Source of the DNA: Halobacteriales archaeon QS_1_68_17
GTDB taxonomy: Archaea; Halobacteriota; Halobacteria; Halobacteriales; Haloarculaceae
Length of the DNA: 64,000 bases
Assembly: GCA_003021105.1 (NCBI GenBank)
Contig: PXRG01000031.1
Coordinates: forward strand, 1-64,000
Reading direction: 5' to 3'
Shown here: positions 38,639 through 55,622 of the stretch, one piece after another
How positions within the stretch are numbered: position 1 is the first letter of the stretch
How the letters are laid out: each line of letters starts with the position of its first letter
Translations under genes and position numbers: made by a program
Notes under the pieces: model-generated
Told to the model about the DNA's origin: nothing
Database searches by the model: none
The model's input: the letters and a program-made list of their open reading frames with translations, nothing else

Positions 38639-39421
38639 CGGGTCGGTCGCTCCGTCGTACACCAGTTCGCCCTCGACGAACTGCCTGGTCCGGGGGTCCG
38701 AGGGCGACTCGAAGATCAGTTCGGGGGGGCCGAACTCGACGAGTTCGCCGTCGAGCACGAACCCCACGCGGTCGGAGAGCCGCTCGGCCTGGTGCATGTC
38801 GTGCGTGGCGACCACCACGCCGACGCCGCGCTCACTCGCGCGCTCGATGGCCCCCTCCAGGACTGCCGTGTTCCGGGGATCGAGGTTCGACGTCGGCTCG
38901 TCTAACAACATGATCTCCGGATCGACCGCCAGCGCCCGCGCGAACGCCACCCGCTGGGCCTCGCCGCCGGACAGCGACAGGGCGTTCTGGTCGACCTTCC
39001 CCGCTAGCCCGACCGTCTCGAGGGCTCGCGCGGCCGACGCCGGCAGGTCGGTCCCGCCGACGAGTCCGGCGAGCCAGCCGCGCAGCCGGTCGTCCCACGC
39101 TTCCCGGACCCGGACCCCGTAGGTCACGTTCCGCGCGACCGGTGCGTTGAACAGGCTCGGTTCCTGGAACACCATCGCCAGCCGCCTGCGGATCGCCAGC
39201 CGCCCGTCCCCCGGCCGGTCCCAGACGTCCTCCCCGTTCCAGGTGATCGCTCCCGCGTCCGGCCGCCGGAACAGCGCCAGCAGCCGCAACAGCGTCGTCT
39301 TCCCGGTCCCCGAGGGGCCGACGACCGTGACGACCTCCCCCGGCGAGACGTCGATCGAGACGTCGGAGAGCACCGGTTCGTCCCCGTAGGACAGCGAGAC
39401 GCCCTCGGCCGCGAGCGTCAC
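38612..39421 (-). CDS. tupC: Tungstate ABC transporter ATP-binding protein
   Basis: 269 aa from GTG 39421, which overlaps the permease stop by 4 bp (GTGA). Walker A is [12 protein letters not shown], the signature [18 protein letters not shown], Walker [14 protein letters not shown] and the switch His [13 protein letters not shown]. Together with TupB-like permease and TupA-like binding protein it forms a tungstate/molybdate importer driven by ATP. The 3' end appears duplicated downstream. Confidence 0.92.
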
Positions 39422-40122
39422 GGTTCGCCCCTCCCGCGACCGCGGCTCCTGATCCACGACCCCAGCGAGTTCACGCCCAGCACCAACACGAGGAGGATCA
39501 CGCCTAGCACCAGCCCCACCTCGTAGCGGCCCTGCCGGGCCTCGACGGTGATGGCCGTCGTGAGCGTCCGGGTGTAGGAGGTCCCGTCGCTGAACACGAT
39601 GTTGCCGCCGACGATGAGGATCGACCCCACCTCGCTGATCGCCCGGCCGAACCCCGCCAGGACCGCCGTGACGATCCCGTAGCGGGCTTCCTTGATGACC
39701 ACGAGGCCGACGTCGGCGTCGGTCCCGCCCATCGCGCGGGCGGCGTCGCGGACCGGCTGGCTGATCTCCTCGACCGACGAGAGGCTGATGCTCGTGATCA
39801 CCGGCGTCGCCAGGACGAACTGCGAGGCGATCATCGCCTGCGGGGTAAAGGCCAACTGGAGGTCCCCCAGCGGCCCGCTGTTCGAGAGCACCATCAGGAC
39901 CACCAGCCCGACGACGACGCTGGGAAAGCCCATCCCGGTGTTGATGACCGCCGTCACCACCCGCTTGCCGGGGAAGTCCGTGAACCCGATCAGAAGCGCG
40001 ACCGGCAGGCTCGCCAGCGTGCTCAGCGCGACTGCCGTCAGGCTCACCTGCAGCGAGACGAGGACGATGCTGACGACGTACGTCCAGCCGCCGTCGGGGA
40101 GCTGCACGAGCTGGCCGATCAT
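39418..40122 (-). CDS. tupB: Tungstate ABC transporter permease
   Basis: 234 aa with five to six hydrophobic helices. The permease EAA-type loop is [31 protein letters not shown], and [26 protein letters not shown] is typical of TupB. It overlaps tupC and lies 12 bp after tupA. The encoded protein sits in the membrane as a homodimer in known systems. Confidence 0.92.
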
Positions 40123-40134
40123 GCCGGCGGACGC

Positions 40135-41175
40135 TCAGTACCCCCGCGGGACTTTCGTCTCCACCCAGTAGAGGTACTGCGTGTTCCGCCGCGAGAGCGA
40201 CGCCGCCTCCTGGGCCGAGTACCCCTGCGGGACGTACTGACTGAAGTTCGGTTCCTCGCTGATGGCATTCGGGAAGAACAACTGTGACCCGTTGGTCGTG
40301 TAGTTTTCGATCATCCGCTGGCCCTGCGGGCTCGTCAGGAACCCGGCGTAGGCCATCGCGGCCTGGTAGTTCACATCGTCGTACTTCGCGGGGTTGACCG
40401 GGATCACGCCGTAGGGGTTCTTCAGGATGACCGGCCCGTCCTTCAGCGGCCCCTCGACGTGGATCACGAGGCCGATCTCGCTTTGCATCGAGAGGTAGGT
40501 CCCGCGGTCGGCCAGCGTGTACGCGCCGGTCTGGCTGGCCTGGACGAGCGTGTCGCCCATCCCTTTCCCGACCTCCCGGTACCACTGGCCGCCCGGATCG
40601 GTCCCGGCCTGCTCCCAGATGAGCTGTTCTTTCTTGTGGGTCCCCGAGTCGTCGCCGCGGGAAACGAACGTCGCGTCCTCGCTCGCGATGGTGGTGAACG
40701 CCTCCGTCGCGCTGCCCGTCCCGTTGATGCCCGCGGGGTCGTCTTCCGGGCCGACGATCACGAAGTCGTTGAACATCACGTCCCGGCGGTTGACGCCGAC
40801 CCCGTCCTGCATGAACTGGTCCTCGGCCCCGCGGGCGTGGACGAGGATGACGTCGGCGTCCCCGTCCCTGGCCGTCCGGATGCTCGCGCCGGTTCCCTTC
40901 GGGATCGTTTTGATCGTCAGCCCGTAGTTCTCCTCGAACGTCGGGTGCAAGGCGTCCAGAAGCCCCGTGTCGTAGGTGCTCGTCGTCGTCGCCACCACTA
41001 GTTCGCCGTCGCCGATCTGTCCGCTCGCCGCCGAACTGCTGCCGTCCTGCATCTCCGTCGCGTCCGCGGTCGTCTCGGCCTGGCTCGCCCGGCTTCGCCC
41101 ACCCGTACAGCCGGCGACGCCGGCGAGCGCACCGAGCCCCGCCGCTTCGAGGAACCGCCTCCGTTGTATCGGCAT
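40135..41175 (-). CDS. tupA: Tungstate-binding lipoprotein of ABC transporter
   Basis: 346 aa from ATG 41175. [26 protein letters not shown] is a twin-arginine signal with a lipobox ending at Cys, so the protein is lipid-anchored outside the cell. [23 protein letters not shown] and [25 protein letters not shown] are the oxyanion-binding TupA motifs, and [14 protein letters not shown] is the second binding region. The upstream start at 41292 would place the Arg pair internally and is rejected. It delivers tungstate, needed for the AOR at 53406. Confidence 0.93.
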
Positions 41176-49793: not shown

Positions 49794-50072
49794 TCAGGCG
49801 GCCCCGAGCGACGCCGCGGCCGGCCAGGCGGCCGGTGCCACCGTCGTCTCGCAGTGCCGGCAGTAGACCGCCGCAACGTCGTTTTCGGTCCCGCAATCCC
49901 GGCAGACGACGCCCGGCCGATCCGGGCCCGGGCCGTCGCCGGGATCGCCGGCGGCCGGTGCGTCGTCCCGTTCCCCGCCGCGACGGCAGCCGACGAACCC
50001 CGCGGCTCCCAGGACCGCCAGCAGTGCCACCAGCAGCGCCGTCCCGAAAACGGCCGCGGCGGTCGTGCTCAT
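49794..50072 (-). CDS. Membrane-anchored zinc-ribbon protein (92 aa), last gene of the PBP-fold operon
   Basis: 92 aa. One N-terminal hydrophobic helix (AAAVFGTALLVALLAVLGAAGFVG), an acidic/Pro-rich linker, then VVCRDCGTENDVAAVYCRHCE, a four-Cys zinc ribbon. Its start overlaps the stop of the preceding gene by ATGA, so it is translated from the operon. Such ribbons may mediate protein contact at the membrane. It could tether the three cytosolic binding proteins, but no direct evidence exists. Confidence 0.72.
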   Translation of the reverse strand: MSTTAAAVFGTALLVALLAVLGAAGFVGCRRGGERDDAPAAGDPGDGPGPDRPGVVCRDCGTENDVAAVYCRHCETTVAPAAWPAAASLGAA

Positions 50073-51034
50073 CGGTCGATCCGCGCGGCGTAGTCGCCGA
50101 TGGCGTCCGTGCTCGCGCCCAGATACTCGTTGGTCCAGGCCGCGTCGGGATCGACCGGGCCGTCGAGGAGGTCCGTTTCCGCGAGCGTCCCGGCCAGCGT
50201 CCGCCAGCGCTCGCCGTCCTGGTTGCCCCACCCGGCCTGCCGGACGTGGTCGGCGAACTGGAGGTCCTCGGCGGCCCGCCGGAACTTCAGGCGCTCTATC
50301 TCCCGGCGGCGCTCCAGCGTGGCGTTGCGCGCGACCAGCGCGTCGACGGCCGCGTTCGGATCGTTCGTCGCCGCCGCCCACCCCCGCGCGGTCGCCCGCA
50401 GGAACGCCCGCACCGCCCCGGGGTCGTCGGTGACCAGTTCGTGGTTGGCGACGATGGTCATCCCGTAGATGTCGAGGTACGACCCGATGTGGAGTTCGTC
50501 GGCCGCGTGGTCGTGTTCCCACTCCAGTTCCGTGCCGTTGGTCACGACGCCGACGGCGGCGTCGACCTCGCCGTCGAGCAGCTGGTGCTGGACGCGGTGG
50601 TGGGTGTTCGGGTCGACCGGCAGCAACTCCACGTCCTCGCGGATCCCCTCGTTTTCGAGCAGCTGGGCGGTCAGGATGCGCGTCTTGGTCGCGGAGGGCG
50701 CGACGGTCCGGCCGGCCAGCTGTCCCGGCCGTTCGAGCGGCTCGCCGAACACGTCCCGAAGCGTGTAGACGGCGGCGGGCGTCTTCTGGGTGACCGCCGC
50801 GACCGCCAGCGGGTCGAAGCCCTCGCTTTGCACCGAGAGGACGGCGCTCCCGCCCGCCAGCCCGAGGTCCGACCGGCCGCGGGCGGTCTGCTCGGCCGCG
50901 AACGGCGAGCCGTGGCCCTCGACGAACTGGACCTCCAGCCCCTCCTCGTCGTAGAAGCCCCGGTCCCTGGCGAGGAAGTACGGGGCCTGGAAGCCGTTGG
51001 GCTCCCAGTTCAACTGGAAAGCGACCGTCGTCAT
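50069..51034 (-). CDS. Cytosolic periplasmic-binding-fold protein (NMT1/THI5-like), third of three
   Basis: 321 aa from ATG 51034. MTTVAFQLNWEPNGFQAPYFLARDRGFYDEEGLEVQFVEG is the NMT1/THI5/SsuA-type start, and VAPSATKTRILTAQLLENEG and GEVDAAVGVVTNGTELEW are typical of the fold. There is no signal peptide, lipobox or Tat motif before the first strand, so it should stay in the cytosol. It is chained by ATGA to the genes on both sides. Family members are transporter binding proteins or, in THI5 and dihydroxyphthalate decarboxylase, enzymes. No permease or ATPase gene is nearby. Confidence 0.82.
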   Translation of the reverse strand: MTTVAFQLNWEPNGFQAPYFLARDRGFYDEEGLEVQFVEGHGSPFAAEQTARGRSDLGLAGGSAVLSVQSEGFDPLAVAAVTQKTPAAVYTLRDVFGEPLERPGQLAGRTVAPSATKTRILTAQLLENEGIREDVELLPVDPNTHHRVQHQLLDGEVDAAVGVVTNGTELEWEHDHAADELHIGSYLDIYGMTIVANHELVTDDPGAVRAFLRATARGWAAATNDPNAAVDALVARNATLERRREIERLKFRRAAEDLQFADHVRQAGWGNQDGERWRTLAGTLAETDLLDGPVDPDAAWTNEYLGASTDAIGDYAARIDR

Positions 51035-52017
51035 TCGACCTCCAGCCGGAAGGTGCCCTCCGGGATGTGGTCGACCCCGAGCGCGTCGCCGCCGGCCACG
51101 TCCAGCAGGTGGTCGAAGAGCCGTTCCATTCCCGCCACGGTCTCGGCGTCCCAGTCGCGGACGACCATGTCGCGCCAGCCGTCCCGGACCGCCCGGACGA
51201 TGGCCGGGTCGTCGTAGGTCATCAGCTTCGACCCGATCTCCTCCCAGATCTCGTCGTCTTCCACGAGGTAATCGACGACCTCCCGGTAGGCGCGCTTGAA
51301 CGAGCGGACGGCCTCGGGGTGGTCGGCGAGGTAGGATTCGCTGGTGAGGAAAGTAGAGACCGGCAGCCGGTTGTCCGTCTCCGAGAGCCGCTGGACGAGC
51401 GTCGACATCGGCAACACCTCGCGGTAGTCGCCCCGTTCGGTGATCTCGGGGACGATGGGCCAGAACTGGAGGACGGCGTCGACCTCGCCGTCGTGGAGCA
51501 GTTCCGTCAGCCCGACCTTCGACCCCGCCTCGACGGGCGTGGCCTCCTCGTCGGGGTCGAAGCCGTGGTACTCGCGGCAGGCCGCGCGGACGAGGATCCA
51601 GTTCTTGTCGAGGCGGCGGACGACGCCGATCCGGTGGCCCGGCAGGTCCTCGATGCCCCCGATGTCGGTGTCGGTCGGCGCGACCAGCCCCCCGACGGTC
51701 CGGCCGTAGGGGTGGAAGGCGACGATGGGCGCGCCCTCGGCGCGCTCGCGGGCCGTCGAGATGTAGTCGATGTCGATGAGGTCGGCGTCGCCGTCCTGGA
51801 GGCGCGCCTCGACGGTCTCCATCCCGCCTTCGAGTTCGTCCGAGACCAGTTCGACGTCGAGGTGGAAGCCGTGGTCGTGGTCCAGCCCCAGGCGCTTGAT
51901 CGTGTAGAGCATGTACCGGGGGCTGCCGTTGTGCTCGAAGCGGGCGCGCATCACCGGCAGGTCCCCGGGGTCGCCGTGCTGTGCGTCCAGCGCCGCCTGC
52001 TGTGTTGCGATGTTCAT
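51031..52017 (-). CDS. Cytosolic periplasmic-binding-fold protein, second of three
   Basis: 328 aa from ATG 52017. RARFEHNGSPRYMLYTIKRLGLDHDHGFHLDVELVSDELEGG has the binding-protein start without an export signal. DADLIDIDYISTARERAEGAPIVAF and LPGHRIGVVRRLDKNWILVRAACREY are the ligand-cleft strands. It overlaps both neighbours by ATGA. The similarity to its paralogues is in the fold, not in close identity, so the three probably bind different ligands or act as different enzymes. The actual substrate is unknown. Confidence 0.8.
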   Translation of the reverse strand: MNIATQQAALDAQHGDPGDLPVMRARFEHNGSPRYMLYTIKRLGLDHDHGFHLDVELVSDELEGGMETVEARLQDGDADLIDIDYISTARERAEGAPIVAFHPYGRTVGGLVAPTDTDIGGIEDLPGHRIGVVRRLDKNWILVRAACREYHGFDPDEEATPVEAGSKVGLTELLHDGEVDAVLQFWPIVPEITERGDYREVLPMSTLVQRLSETDNRLPVSTFLTSESYLADHPEAVRSFKRAYREVVDYLVEDDEIWEEIGSKLMTYDDPAIVRAVRDGWRDMVVRDWDAETVAGMERLFDHLLDVAGGDALGVDHIPEGTFRLEVE

Positions 52018-52901
52018 AGGGGAGCGACGATGGCACCGATGTCGGCGTCCTCGTCGATGAGGCCGCGGCGTTTCATCCAGTCGAGGTGGTCGTCTAGTTC
52101 CGCCCGGTCCGCGAACTCCGGGGTCTCGTACTCCGGGACGGTGATCGACGCCCGGATCGCCTCCATGTCGACCTCGGCGAACAGGTCCGGGGCGACCCGC
52201 AGGTCCTCTGTCAACATCGCCAGGTACTCGTCGCGGAACGACTCGGGGTCGTCGTTGATCTCGGCGACGGCCCGCTCGTATCCCTCCATGAACGCCGCCA
52301 TCGTCGCGTCGTCGACGTGGTCCGCGCCGACGATGCCCATGTGGTTCTCGAACTCCAGGACCTTCTCGAACCCCAGGTGCTCGGCGAGCGTGCTGTGGGG
52401 CTCCAGCAGGGAGACGGCCGCGACCTCGCCCTCGCGGAGCGCGGCCAGCCGGTCGGTCGGCATCCCGTGGTGTTCGAGGTCGACCGCCGCCGCCGGCAGG
52501 TGGTCCTCCAGGGCCCGCCGGACGGTGTACTCCTGGCCGGTCCGCATGTTCACGCCCACCGGCACCTCGGCCAGGTCCCCCGGCGTCTCGATGTCGGTCC
52601 CCGGCCGGGTGTAGACGCTGTAGGGCTGGTCAGCGAAGGTCCCGCTGGCGACGATCCGGCCGTCGCCCATGTCCCAGGTCCGCTTGATGCTCTCCCACTT
52701 GCAGATCGGATAGAGGTCGACGTCGTTGTCCTCCGTCAGCGTCTCGTCGGCCGGGATGTACTTCCAGTCGACCTCCGCCCGGTCGCGCTCGACCAGTTCC
52801 ACGTCCAGTCCAGCCTCGGCGAAGTACCCCCGCTCGCTGGCGACCCGCTGGGGCAACATGAACGAGAACGGGAGGTGGAACAGCCTGATACTGTCTCCCA
52901 T
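52014..52901 (-). CDS. Cytosolic periplasmic-binding-fold protein, first of three
   Basis: 295 aa from ATG 52901. IRLFHLPFSFMLPQRVASERGYFAEAGLDVELVERDRAEVDW starts the fold directly; there is no signal peptide. DVDLYPICKWESIKRTW, RPGTDIETPGDLAEVPVGVNMRTGQEYTV and GEVAAVSLLEPHSTLAEHLG follow the SsuA/THI5 pattern. It leads the four-gene ATGA chain and is divergent from a cupin gene with a strong TATA region between them. An enzyme related to THI5 or to decarboxylases of this fold is as likely as a transport component. Confidence 0.8.
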   Translation of the reverse strand: MGDSIRLFHLPFSFMLPQRVASERGYFAEAGLDVELVERDRAEVDWKYIPADETLTEDNDVDLYPICKWESIKRTWDMGDGRIVASGTFADQPYSVYTRPGTDIETPGDLAEVPVGVNMRTGQEYTVRRALEDHLPAAAVDLEHHGMPTDRLAALREGEVAAVSLLEPHSTLAEHLGFEKVLEFENHMGIVGADHVDDATMAAFMEGYERAVAEINDDPESFRDEYLAMLTEDLRVAPDLFAEVDMEAIRASITVPEYETPEFADRAELDDHLDWMKRRGLIDEDADIGAIVAPL

Positions 52902-52983
52902 GCTACGTGGTAGTCCCCGCGCTCGAACTTAAAAATAACGAGGGAAGGTTTATAAGGATAAGCGTGGCAAGTCAGAGCGCACC
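52902..52983. promoter_or_regulatory. Divergent promoter between the PBP-fold operon and the cupin gene
   Basis: The 82-bp gap holds AACTTAAAAATAACGAG and GTTTATAAGGATAAG. TTTATAAG is a good haloarchaeal TATA box for the rightward cupin gene, about 35 bp before its ATG. The left AT-rich block could serve the leftward operon. Shared regulation of both sides is likely by proximity. Confidence 0.6.
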
Positions 52984-53409
52984 ATGGAGCGCGTCTCGGC
53001 GGACGAGCGGGAACCGGCACGAGTCAGCGACGGCATCTACCTCGCGGATCTGGCGACGGGCGAGCGCGCGGGGATGACCTACTGGCGGATCGATCCGGGC
53101 GAGCGGCTCCCCCCGCACCGGCACGACAACGAACAGATCGGCTACGTCATCAGCGGCCGCCTCGTCGCGCTGGTCGAGGGCGAGGAGCACGTCCTCGAAC
53201 CGGGCGACTCCTACGCGTTCCCGAGCGGCGAACTACACGGCGCGGAGAACAGGGGCGACGAACCCGCGGTCGGCGTCGGCATCCTCAGCCCGCCGCGGGA
53301 CGAACCCGACTGGAGCGACGGGACCGCGGACGCGGAATCCGAGTCCCAGTCCCGGTCCGAATCCGAATCCGAGTCCGGGACCGCCGCCAGCCCCGCCGAG
53401 TCGGACTAG
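52984..53409 (+). CDS. Cupin-domain protein with Ser/Glu repeat tail
   Basis: 141 aa from ATG 52984. The cupin barrel is PPHRHDNEQIGYVISGRLVALVEGEEHVLEPGDSYAFPSGELHG, with His, Glu and a later His for a metal ion. The last 35 residues are a low-complexity Ser/Glu tail (ESESQSRSESESESG), encoded by TCCGAG-type repeats. Small cupins of this type act as metal-dependent isomerases, dioxygenases or sensors. Its stop overlaps the AOR stop by two bases; the genes converge. Confidence 0.85.
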   Translation: MERVSADEREPARVSDGIYLADLATGERAGMTYWRIDPGERLPPHRHDNEQIGYVISGRLVALVEGEEHVLEPGDSYAFPSGELHGAENRGDEPAVGVGILSPPRDEPDWSDGTADAESESQSRSESESESGTAASPAESD

Positions 53410-55064
53410 ACGCGTTCCGCGGGCACGGTCCCGTCGTCGTTCCAGCCCCGCATCTCGTAGTACGCCGACAGTTCCGCGTCCAGCCCCGGCAGGTCGTAGG
53501 GGAGCGCGTCGTCGTCGCTCCGGTCGAACCCGCGGCGGTTGTTGAACGCCCGTTCCAGGTCGACCACCCGCGCCCCGACCGCCAGCAGGTCGTCGTAGTC
53601 TGCCCCGAGCAGCGTCCCCAGACGGTCGTCGGTCACCACGTCCCGCGAGAACCGGCAGACGACGCCCGAATCGAGGACCGCGTTGTGGTTCTCCTGGGCG
53701 ACCAGGGTGGCGGCCTTCCCGGCCACGCCCTCGGGTTCGAGCGCTTCCTCCTCGTCGACCAGGGGGTACTCGCGTTCGTACATCGCGGCGTAGAGGTGGT
53801 CGGCACCGCGGTTCGACGTGGCGAAGGCGAGCCCCTGGCCGTTGAGCGCCCGGCCGTCGTGGGCCGAGAACTCCATGCCTTTCATGGTCCAGTTCTCCAC
53901 GCCGAGTTCGTCGTGGACGCGGTCGATGCCCTCGGCCAGCAGGTCGCCGACGCCCTCGCGGCGGGCGATCTTCTCGATCAGCTCGTGGGCGAGGTCGGCG
54001 TCCCCGAACCGGTCCTCGCTGGCGAGATAGGCCGACACCACGTCCCCACACGAGATGGTGTCCAGCCCGAGTTCGTCGCACAGGTCGTTCGAGACCATCA
54101 CGTCCACGACGTCGTCGATCCCGGCGTTCGACCCGAAGGCCATCACCGTCTCGTACTCCGGCCCCTCGGTCTCGACGCCCCGCGTTTCGTCCCTGGTCGG
54201 GAGTTTGCACGCGAAGGCACACTGCGAGCAGGTCCCCTTCTTGTACTTTTTCTCCTCGACGCGGTCGCCGCTGATCCCGGCCGCGCCCTCGAAGCGAAGC
54301 GCCGAGAAGTACCGGGTCGGGAGCGCGCCGAACTCGTTTGCGAACTCCGTGAGGCTGGTCGTCCCCTGCCGGCGCATGATGTTGTCGCTGGTCGCCGCCT
54401 CGCGGTGGACGTCCGCGGTCACGTCGGGCAACTCGACGGGCCGCCGCGAGTCGCCGTCGAACGTGAGTAGCTTGACGTTCTTCGACCCCAGCACCGCCCC
54501 GAGTCCCCCGCGGCCGAACGTCCGGTGTTCGGTGGTCATGATCGAGGCGAACCGGACGCGGTTTTCCCCCGCCGGTCCGACGCAGGCGACCGCGTCCTCG
54601 CCGAGGCCGTGTTCGCGCTCGACGTAGTCGCTTATCGCCGACACCCGCCCCCCGGCCAGTTCCGGCACCGGTTCGAAGGTCGCGCCGTCGTCCCGGACGT
54701 GGACCGCCAGGGGTTCGTCACTCCGGCCGGTGATCCCGACGGCGGCATACCCGGTGTCCGCGAAGTTCCGCGAGAGGTACCCGCCGGCGTTCGAGGACAG
54801 CAGGCCGCCGGTCAGCGGCGACAGCCCCGTGCAGTTCATCCGGCCGGTGAAACTCGTCGTCGCGGTCTGGAGCGGGCCGGTCGTGAAAAACACGGCGTTC
54901 TCTGGTCCGAACGGGTCCGCGTCGAACGGGATCCGCTCGTAGGCCAGTTTCGTGCCGACTCCGCGTCCCCCGACGAAGGCCGCCAGCACGTCGTCGACGT
55001 CCTCGGTCCGGGCCTCGCGGTCCCCGACGTCGACCGTCAGAAGCGGCCCGCGAACGTGTCTCAT
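53406..55064 (-). CDS. aor: Aldehyde:ferredoxin oxidoreductase (tungsten enzyme)
   Basis: 552 aa from ATG 55064 (MRHVRGPLLTVDVGDREA); the upstream ATG 55130 adds unlike residues. GGRGVGTKLAYERI and NAVFFTTGPLQTATTSFTGRMN are the pterin-binding N-terminal motifs. GTCSQCAFACKLPTR with a later Cys in LGLDTISCGDV provides the four ligands of the Fe4S4 cluster. RASIMTTEHRTFGRGGLGAVLG-type sequence is also present. It oxidises an aldehyde to an acid with reduction of ferredoxin. The window also encodes a tungstate importer and MoaE. Subfamily and substrate are not readable. Confidence 0.92.
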   Translation of the reverse strand: MRHVRGPLLTVDVGDREARTEDVDDVLAAFVGGRGVGTKLAYERIPFDADPFGPENAVFFTTGPLQTATTSFTGRMNCTGLSPLTGGLLSSNAGGYLSRNFADTGYAAVGITGRSDEPLAVHVRDDGATFEPVPELAGGRVSAISDYVEREHGLGEDAVACVGPAGENRVRFASIMTTEHRTFGRGGLGAVLGSKNVKLLTFDGDSRRPVELPDVTADVHREAATSDNIMRRQGTTSLTEFANEFGALPTRYFSALRFEGAAGISGDRVEEKKYKKGTCSQCAFACKLPTRDETRGVETEGPEYETVMAFGSNAGIDDVVDVMVSNDLCDELGLDTISCGDVVSAYLASEDRFGDADLAHELIEKIARREGVGDLLAEGIDRVHDELGVENWTMKGMEFSAHDGRALNGQGLAFATSNRGADHLYAAMYEREYPLVDEEEALEPEGVAGKAATLVAQENHNAVLDSGVVCRFSRDVVTDDRLGTLLGADYDDLLAVGARVVDLERAFNNRRGFDRSDDDALPYDLPGLDAELSAYYEMRGWNDDGTVPAERV

Positions 55065-55190
55065 GAGTGGGTCACACGCCCGCCGGTACCAAAAAGTCAG
55101 GCCCTCCGCGCGCCCGCCAGCGTCAAACATCCGCCCCGCCGTACGCCCGAGCGGGAAAAGCTATTTTTGCCAGTCCGCGGCCCTTCTACT

Positions 55191-55622
55191 ATGGACGCGG
55201 TCGATCACATCAACGTCGACGTAAACGACCTGGACGCCTGTTTCCGGTTCTACCGGGACGTACTCGACCTGGAGTTGCTCCGCCCGCCGGCGGACTTCCA
55301 GGGCGACCACGCCATGTTCGCGGCGGGCGAGACCGTGGTGACCCTCGCCGAGACCGGGCGGGCCGAGGGCTGGACGCCGGCGGACCTCGACCACCCGCTG
55401 GACAAGGCCCATATCGCCTTCGCCACCGACCGGGAGACCTACGAGGCGCTGATCGACGACCTCGACGGCCAGTTCCCCAAGCAGGGTCCCTACGACTGGG
55501 GGGAGTTCGAGGGCTTTTACTTCCTCGACCCGGACGGGAACCTCCTCGAAATCGTCACCTACGACCCGCTCCCCGACGGGGTAGACCGGGAACTGCTCGA
55601 CCACGATTCGATCCACGAGTAG
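55191..55622 (+). CDS. VOC-family (glyoxalase/dioxygenase-like) protein
   Basis: 143 aa from ATG 55191, preceded by an AAGCTATTTTTG promoter-like region. MDAVDHINVDVNDLDACFRFYRDVLDLELLRPPADF and FEGFYFLDPDGNLLEIVTYDP are the two vicinal-oxygen-chelate modules with His and Glu metal ligands. Members are glyoxalases, epimerases or ring-cleaving dioxygenases. It is divergent from the AOR gene, so it may share aldehyde-related metabolism. Confidence 0.88.
   Translation: MDAVDHINVDVNDLDACFRFYRDVLDLELLRPPADFQGDHAMFAAGETVVTLAETGRAEGWTPADLDHPLDKAHIAFATDRETYEALIDDLDGQFPKQGPYDWGEFEGFYFLDPDGNLLEIVTYDPLPDGVDRELLDHDSIHE

Follow-up and report, generated by a model that had tools for sequence, protein, structure and literature searches.

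The biology of pyrroloquinoline quinone (PQQ) is known almost wholly from bacteria, in which both the enzymes using this cofactor and the proteins carrying it are periplasmic. PqqT binds PQQ with a dissociation constant of 50 nM, and PqqU allows Gram-negative bacteria to scavenge PQQ without synthesizing it (PMC12124388). Here we analysed a 64,000 nt stretch (the window) of contig PXRG01000031.1 from the metagenome-assembled genome (MAG) of Halobacteriales archaeon QS_1_68_17, in which a cluster at 49794-55622 comprises three genes for proteins of the substrate-binding-protein (SBP) fold, SBP1, SBP2 and SBP3 (the trio), next to genes for a cupin, an aldehyde ferredoxin oxidoreductase (AOR) and a VOC-superfamily protein. 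The reading that we favour, with a probability of roughly 0.5, is that the trio forms a PQQ-handling module in the cytosol for the benefit of quinoprotein alcohol dehydrogenases, whose aldehydes are then oxidised by the AOR. PQQ is proposed as the ligand because two independent lines point to it, namely the homology of SBP2 to a PQQ carrier and the co-inheritance of the trio with quinoproteins. The handling role is proposed since, in addition, neither a match to PqqC (with a profile for which the genomes offered no positive control) nor a PqqE above the cut-off was found in 32 genomes.

SBP2, PqqT and the link to quinoproteins

SBP2 (P0002, 328 aa; 51031-52017, minus strand) belongs to the Pfam family NMT1 (PF09084, 47.5 bits, above the cut-off). 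Its best match among solved structures is PqqT (9b1u, phmmer E-value 1.9e-26), with the next protein at 1.1e-5. When its AF2 model was compared using Foldseek, ranks 1-3 were all PqqT entries (TM 0.83/0.91, root mean square deviation ~2.2, E-value 1.6e-23), and the first match other than PqqT was THI5 (TM 0.64, E-value 5.7e-14). SBP2 also groups with PqqT in the tree with support of 99/97. The two proteins are 28% identical and share an almost identical aligned loop (RLGV..ALDKNWILLRAQARE in SBP2, RIGV..RLDKNWILVRAACRE in PqqT); the LDKNWIL motif and the F185-W186 pair are invariant across the SBP2 alignment. By sequence and fold SBP2 is nearest to the PQQ-binding protein PqqT and not to a decarboxylase, which was one of the enzyme models put forward in a preliminary description of the locus.

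According to their PDB titles, 9b1u contains PqqT with PQQ, 9b1v PqqT with PQQ and Gd, and 9ooz the Y161W variant with PQQ. Y161-W162 of PqqT aligns to F185-W186 of SBP2, W162 being kept and Y161 replaced by F. We do not claim that K142 of PqqT is the lysine of LDKNWIL, since this would require a 27-residue signal peptide to be counted in the numbering, whereas Y161W follows the numbering of the chain. A PqqT-type protein would be expected to be periplasmic or extracellular, while SBP2 has no signal peptide; we therefore term it a PqqT homologue that may act alike, not a PqqT. The same holds for the location of the whole trio: no Tat (twin-arginine translocation) or lipobox pattern was detected in SBP1, SBP2, SBP3 or their orthologues, and the N-terminal hydropathy is low, as against 1.7-2.1 plus a Tat lipobox in true importer lipoproteins. 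The missing signal peptides noticed in the preliminary description are thus a feature of the orthologues too.

The second line of evidence comes from a co-occurrence survey of 394 haloarchaeal genomes, complemented by detailed reading of 34 loci in which SBP2 had been identified. We followed the PQQ-type (methanol/ethanol-type) quinoprotein alcohol dehydrogenase (qADH) and its partner protein of ~300 aa without a Pfam family, here called U305. The qADH matches PedE, PedH and XoxF in the PDB and scores 382.6 bits with TIGR03075, for which the curated cut-off is 480. Most qADHs retain the vicinal CC, GGEYG, GNPGP and WDYD motifs, and the second Asp of WDYD is a mark of lanthanide-type enzymes in bacteria. 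No signal peptide was found in the qADH. The enzyme is encoded in 71/394 genomes, including 47 of the 52 that carry the trio vs 24/342 others (p 4.5e-37), and three of the five remaining trio genomes carry another PF01011 quinoprotein with its own U305. In 21/39 genomes belonging to four families the distance between the trio and the main type of qADH is <=10 kb; both qADH and U305 were found within ~10 kb at 15 of the 34 loci.

The association extends to an ABC (ATP-binding cassette) importer whose binding protein is related to SBP1. The importer lipoprotein has orthologues in 49 genomes, of which 47 also encode qADH (p 2.5e-40); in 39 of these 47 the importer is situated <=15 kb from qADH. 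When trio and importer are taken together, they coincide with qADH in 68 genomes, one partner is found alone in 6 and 3, and neither in 317 (p 3.7e-65). The 71 qADH genomes divide into 26 with trio and importer, 21 with the importer only, 21 with the trio only and 3 with neither; of the latter, two carry a divergent importer next to their qADH gene, and the remaining one is a MAG with a completeness of 70%. Trio and/or importer thus accompany qADH in 68/71 genomes, or in 70/71 if the two divergent importers are counted. At the genus level qADH occurs with trio or importer in 21 genera, trio or importer alone in 2, qADH alone in 0 and neither in 73 (p 3e-19). No second NMT1 protein of SBP1 strength was seen in the trio-only genomes, save for a few that were not checked singly, some of them HTH-NMT1 regulators.

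Several features were observed around the dehydrogenase genes. Some U305 homologues (L067, L069, L089, L136, L137, L144-L146) begin with a Tat-like RRxFLK N-terminus, which others have lost; export of qADH by hitch-hiking is therefore possible in those lineages, and U305 (for example, L018:3224-4141) is possibly a small subunit carrying the dehydrogenase out in this way. The neighbour of qADH may be a 2Fe-2S ferredoxin gene (L018, L060, L066, L070, L135, L141) or a Tat cupredoxin gene (L067, L068, L079, L131-L134), which suggests different electron acceptors. A strict division into cytosolic and exported qADHs according to the electron carrier was rejected on account of exceptions (L131-L134, L068, L079), and only a tendency can be stated. 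In several genera a gene for a CDC48-type AAA ATPase separates the trio region from qADH/U305 (L018:4374-6569, L022:3412-5589). Formate dehydrogenase alpha genes are present near the trio in four loci, the one that was scored being above the TIGR01591 cut-off; as a speculation, this would fit methanol as one of the substrates.

The gene set and its conservation

In the window the genes SBP3, SBP2, SBP1 and P0004 follow each other in this order on the minus strand, with an ATGA overlap at each of the three junctions. The reading of this chain as three NMT1/THI5-fold genes joined to a membrane zinc-ribbon gene is borne out by the open reading frames, the sequence and the Pfam matches. SBP3 (P0003, 295 aa; 52014-52901) and SBP1 (P0001, 321 aa; 50069-51034) are both above the cut-off of NMT1 PF09084, with 28.0 and 115.9 bits. 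The small P0004 (92 aa; 49794-50072) combines a transmembrane segment with a DUF7577 zinc ribbon (30.4 bits). The cupin gene (P0006, 141 aa; 52984-53409, plus strand; Cupin_2, 1.2e-21) is divergent from SBP3, as was originally described. The AOR gene (P0005; 53406-55130, minus strand), which had also been placed among the divergent genes, is in fact on the same strand as the trio and convergent with the cupin gene. The VOC gene (143 aa; 55191-55622, plus strand; Glyoxalase, 4.5e-10) is divergent from AOR. Within the window no permease or ATPase adjoins the cluster.

The trio, cupin, AOR and VOC genes are clustered in six other genomes at 58-84% identity and in the same or a close arrangement. 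SBP2 is present in 52/394 genomes, always at least 65% identical, and these 52 and no others also carry SBP3, at >=62% identity; because of this identical distribution and the six clustered relatives, the grouping cannot be attributed to chance. The 34 loci almost invariably have the full trio; in 32 the cupin lies beside it, without exception on the opposite strand, and 32 have VOC, while AOR was found in only 12. The P0004 zinc ribbon, though translationally coupled, is lineage-specific, with a weak match in only one of the six relatives, and it was rejected as a member of the set in which it had initially been included. From these counts we consider the trio, the cupin and VOC to be the stable unit, with AOR optional. 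A pattern scan of 85,000 species genomes yielded 35 loci, all of them haloarchaeal or in MAGs labelled euryarchaeal, with Halomarina, Natribaculum, Natrinema, Natrialba and Halolamina among the hosts. Two local variations were noted: SBP3 and SBP2 occur without an adjacent SBP1 in Halolamina salifodinae and a relative (L062, L072), and one family has SBP2 in tandem duplicate with the formate dehydrogenase alpha gene after the trio (L067, L069, L089).

Importer genes, coding for an NMT1-type SBP, two permeases, an ATPase and a helix-turn-helix (HTH)-NMT1 regulator, are found within ~10 kb of the trio, before or after it, at 6/34 loci. An ABC importer operon has an exported SBP with permease and ATPase genes adjacent; the trio SBPs lack export signals, and importer genes lie near them at those six loci only. 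The comparison of gene order proposed in the preliminary description thus found the set conserved mostly with no adjoining transporter, and what was to count against its view, signal peptides or a permease and ATPase co-conserved in most genomes, was not observed. Since the set is conserved, cytosolic and usually without a transporter next to it, that objection fails. The term transport-free holds for the window and not for the wider system, in which an importer with an SBP sister to SBP1 is co-inherited with the same dehydrogenase.

SBP1 is 36-44% identical to the importer lipoproteins and sister to them in the tree (support 95/80); SBP1, the importer SBP (a Tat lipoprotein where its start is intact) and the sensor domains of the HTH-NMT1 regulators form one clade. 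The HTH-NMT1 fusions near importer and qADH genes (e.g. L022:17528-18793, L063:3225-4475), in which the HTH was recognised by eye and NMT1 alone by Pfam, are likely regulators with a sensor of the binding-protein fold. SBP1 finds its nearest solved structures in thiamin-precursor SBPs (ThiY and the thiamin-binding 4nmy) and in THI5, its sequence similarity to the latter having an E-value of 9e-11. Nevertheless, THI5 chemistry was rejected for SBP1, which lacks the CCCFC motif, K62 and H66 (THI5 numbering), and the THI5-like enzyme first envisaged for the locus is not supported.

SBP3 is an isolated branch in the tree. Its profile gave marginal matches only against PDB sequences (3qsl, 6e-4), and its AF2 model (pLDDT 89.5) matched THI5, TauA and ThiY in Foldseek. 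An alignment of 16 sequences revealed the invariant cleft-type motifs FHLPFSF, YPICKWES, RTGQEYT and ENHMG, with C67-K68-W69-E70 invariant. The cupin, weakly similar to gentisate dioxygenase, conserves H45, H47, E50/Q51 and H85, a probable metal site, and H6, H74 and E120 of VOC are probably a metal triad. AOR has both the AFOR_N and AFOR_C domains with the four cluster cysteines C301/C304/C308/C492 conserved; its true start is probably 55064, 66 bases inside the reading frame that begins at 55130, because the alignments of orthologues start at residue 23 or close to it. AOR and AOR2 adjoin the trio or qADH. About 12 kb from AOR the window contains genes for a TupA-like binding protein (201 bits vs a cut-off of 400) and a TupB-like permease (39418-41175, minus strand). 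These genes at 39.4-41.2 kb are a probable tungstate importer and would be compatible with a tungsten cofactor of AOR.

The source MAG is 60.8% complete. Its C33 contig carries a second-type quinoprotein (L080:8335-11892), 44% identical to the main qADH and having a C-terminal anchor-like tail, together with a U305 homologue and a Tat cupredoxin; genes of 410 aa and 479 aa nearby resemble iron-type alcohol dehydrogenase and aldehyde dehydrogenase by eye. The importer is absent from the four NMT1 matches of the MAG, an observation of little weight in a genome this incomplete; contig C9 encodes a protein with an NMT1 domain, of the HTH-NMT1 type.

Possible functions of the gene set

In a PQQ-handling module the trio proteins would represent the binding-protein fold of ABC importers minus the export signal. 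SBP2 would be the cytosolic binder of PQQ or of a PQQ-metal complex; SBP1, being of the same stock as the importer lipoprotein, would bind the imported ligand after uptake, and SBP3 a related ligand or an intermediate. The three, along with the cupin and VOC enzymes, would hold, process or pass on the cofactor for qADH loading, either for cytosolic use or ahead of Tat export. The qADH would then produce aldehydes, which AOR, where present, would oxidise to acids. The ligand, its delivery and the parts assigned to SBP1, SBP3, cupin and VOC are what we infer from the comparisons described above. The original proposal of an aldehyde- or acid-forming pathway in place of an importer survives in its conserved and cytosolic nature and in the link to alcohol, aldehyde and acid oxidation, and not in its enzyme models for the SBPs; the aldehydes most likely stem from the co-inherited qADH, which was not visible to that proposal.

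A number of facts weigh against PQQ handling. One nearly complete trio genome (G029) is devoid of any PF01011 quinoprotein, and the source MAG has only the more distant one, on another contig. Of the 71 qADH genomes, 21 have the trio and lack this type of importer, which leaves PQQ entry there unexplained. For SBP1, as for the importer SBP, the resemblance is to binders of thiamin or pyrimidine (4nmy, 3ix1) and not to PqqT, and at 28-30% identity the ligand specificity of this fold drifts easily. Shared ancestry is not corrected for in the Fisher tests, with which the genus-level count nonetheless agrees. In the open-licence literature we found no measured PQQ binding for any archaeon, and nothing on PQQ, lanthanide dehydrogenases, AOR together with PQQ, or cytosolic THI5-fold proteins in haloarchaea. 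Finally, the way in which trio and importer complement each other, and the strict conservation of both metalloenzyme-like partners, suit a cofactor-making pathway nearly as well.

In such a pathway the trio, cupin and VOC would follow their own cytosolic route, unrelated to PqqA-E, to PQQ or a PQQ-like quinone, with SBP2 as the last, product-binding step, so that SBP-fold enzymes replace PqqA-E plus the importer in ~21 quinoprotein-bearing haloarchaeal genomes. Trio and importer are indeed partly interchangeable in qADH genomes (26 both, 21/21 single, 3 neither, the last class being depleted with p 0.008), cupin and VOC keep their probable metal sites and are present with the trio at 32/34 loci, which is enzyme-like rather than carrier-like, and conservation within the same genomes is 80% for SBP1 and SBP2 as against 71% for the importer SBP. 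The fold includes cofactor-making enzymes such as THI5 and MqnA/MqnD, SBP3 keeps its C67-K68-W69-E70 invariant, and the failure to find PqqC or PqqE accords with a novel route, except that the PqqC search had no positive control. Yet no set-specific precursor gene, radical-SAM enzyme or oxidase was found, 26 genomes carry importer and trio together, and PqqT itself is a plain binding protein; we regard this synthesis as rather unlikely. Somewhat less credible still is a regulon for degradation of one (hetero)aromatic alcohol, taken up by the importer and oxidised by qADH and AOR, with the SBP-fold proteins, cupin and VOC acting as a ring-modifying decarboxylase and dioxygenases. An SBP-fold decarboxylase and a desulfinase are known (9jp7 and 2de2, among the Foldseek matches), and the gentisate-dioxygenase likeness of the cupin and the position of AOR and AOR2 agree with it; but the best match of SBP2 is specifically a cofactor binder, the importer-only genomes operate qADH without the trio, and no ring hydroxylase was seen among the conserved neighbours at the 34 loci. 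We give little credence to the trio acting as ligand sensors, or as buffers, for a pyrimidine of the thiamin type or some other vitamin, linked to quinoproteins indirectly through shared ecology. This would account for the ThiY and 4nmy matches of SBP1 and the importer SBP, and the HTH-NMT1 fusion, a member of the same clade, suggests that the fold does serve here for sensing in the cytosol; however, three structural genes and two metalloenzyme-like genes exceed the needs of a sensor, and both the proximity to qADH in 21/39 genomes and the similarity of SBP2 to PqqT would be left unexplained.

The PQQ-handling module gives a likely function to a conserved set whose family matches are only transport proteins of the sulfonate/thiamin type. 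It suggests an unrecognised archaeal route to handle, or even make, PQQ inside the cell. If it is correct, archaeal PQQ metabolism, possibly including that of lanthanides, becomes directly testable in culturable haloarchaea, and the novelty would consist in a cytosolic set of PqqT-like carriers tied to a signal-less qADH and complementing an ABC importer.

Comparison with described systems

The closest described protein is PqqT of Methylobacterium/Methylorubrum extorquens (9b1u, 9b1v, 9ooz), with which SBP2 shares the fold, the DKNWIL loop, 28% identity and a connection to methanol/ethanol-type quinoproteins. In contrast to the periplasmic PqqT, SBP2 is signal-less, archaeal and chained with two more SBP-fold proteins, a cupin and VOC. 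These haloarchaea would resemble the PqqU-bearing bacteria as quinoprotein users that are without PQQ synthesis and rely on uptake; PqqU, however, is a TonB outer-membrane receptor, whereas the haloarchaea have an NMT1-type ABC importer and/or cytosolic SBPs. The HMP-P (hydroxymethylpyrimidine phosphate) synthase THI5/THI13 is comparable to SBP1 in fold, cytosolic location and detectable sequence similarity, and differs by possessing the CCCFC motif and the catalytic K62 and H66. ThiY and 4nmy are importer SBPs and the nearest solved structures for both SBP1 and the importer lipoprotein. What sets SBP1 apart is its cytosolic location and the association of its clade with quinoprotein loci.

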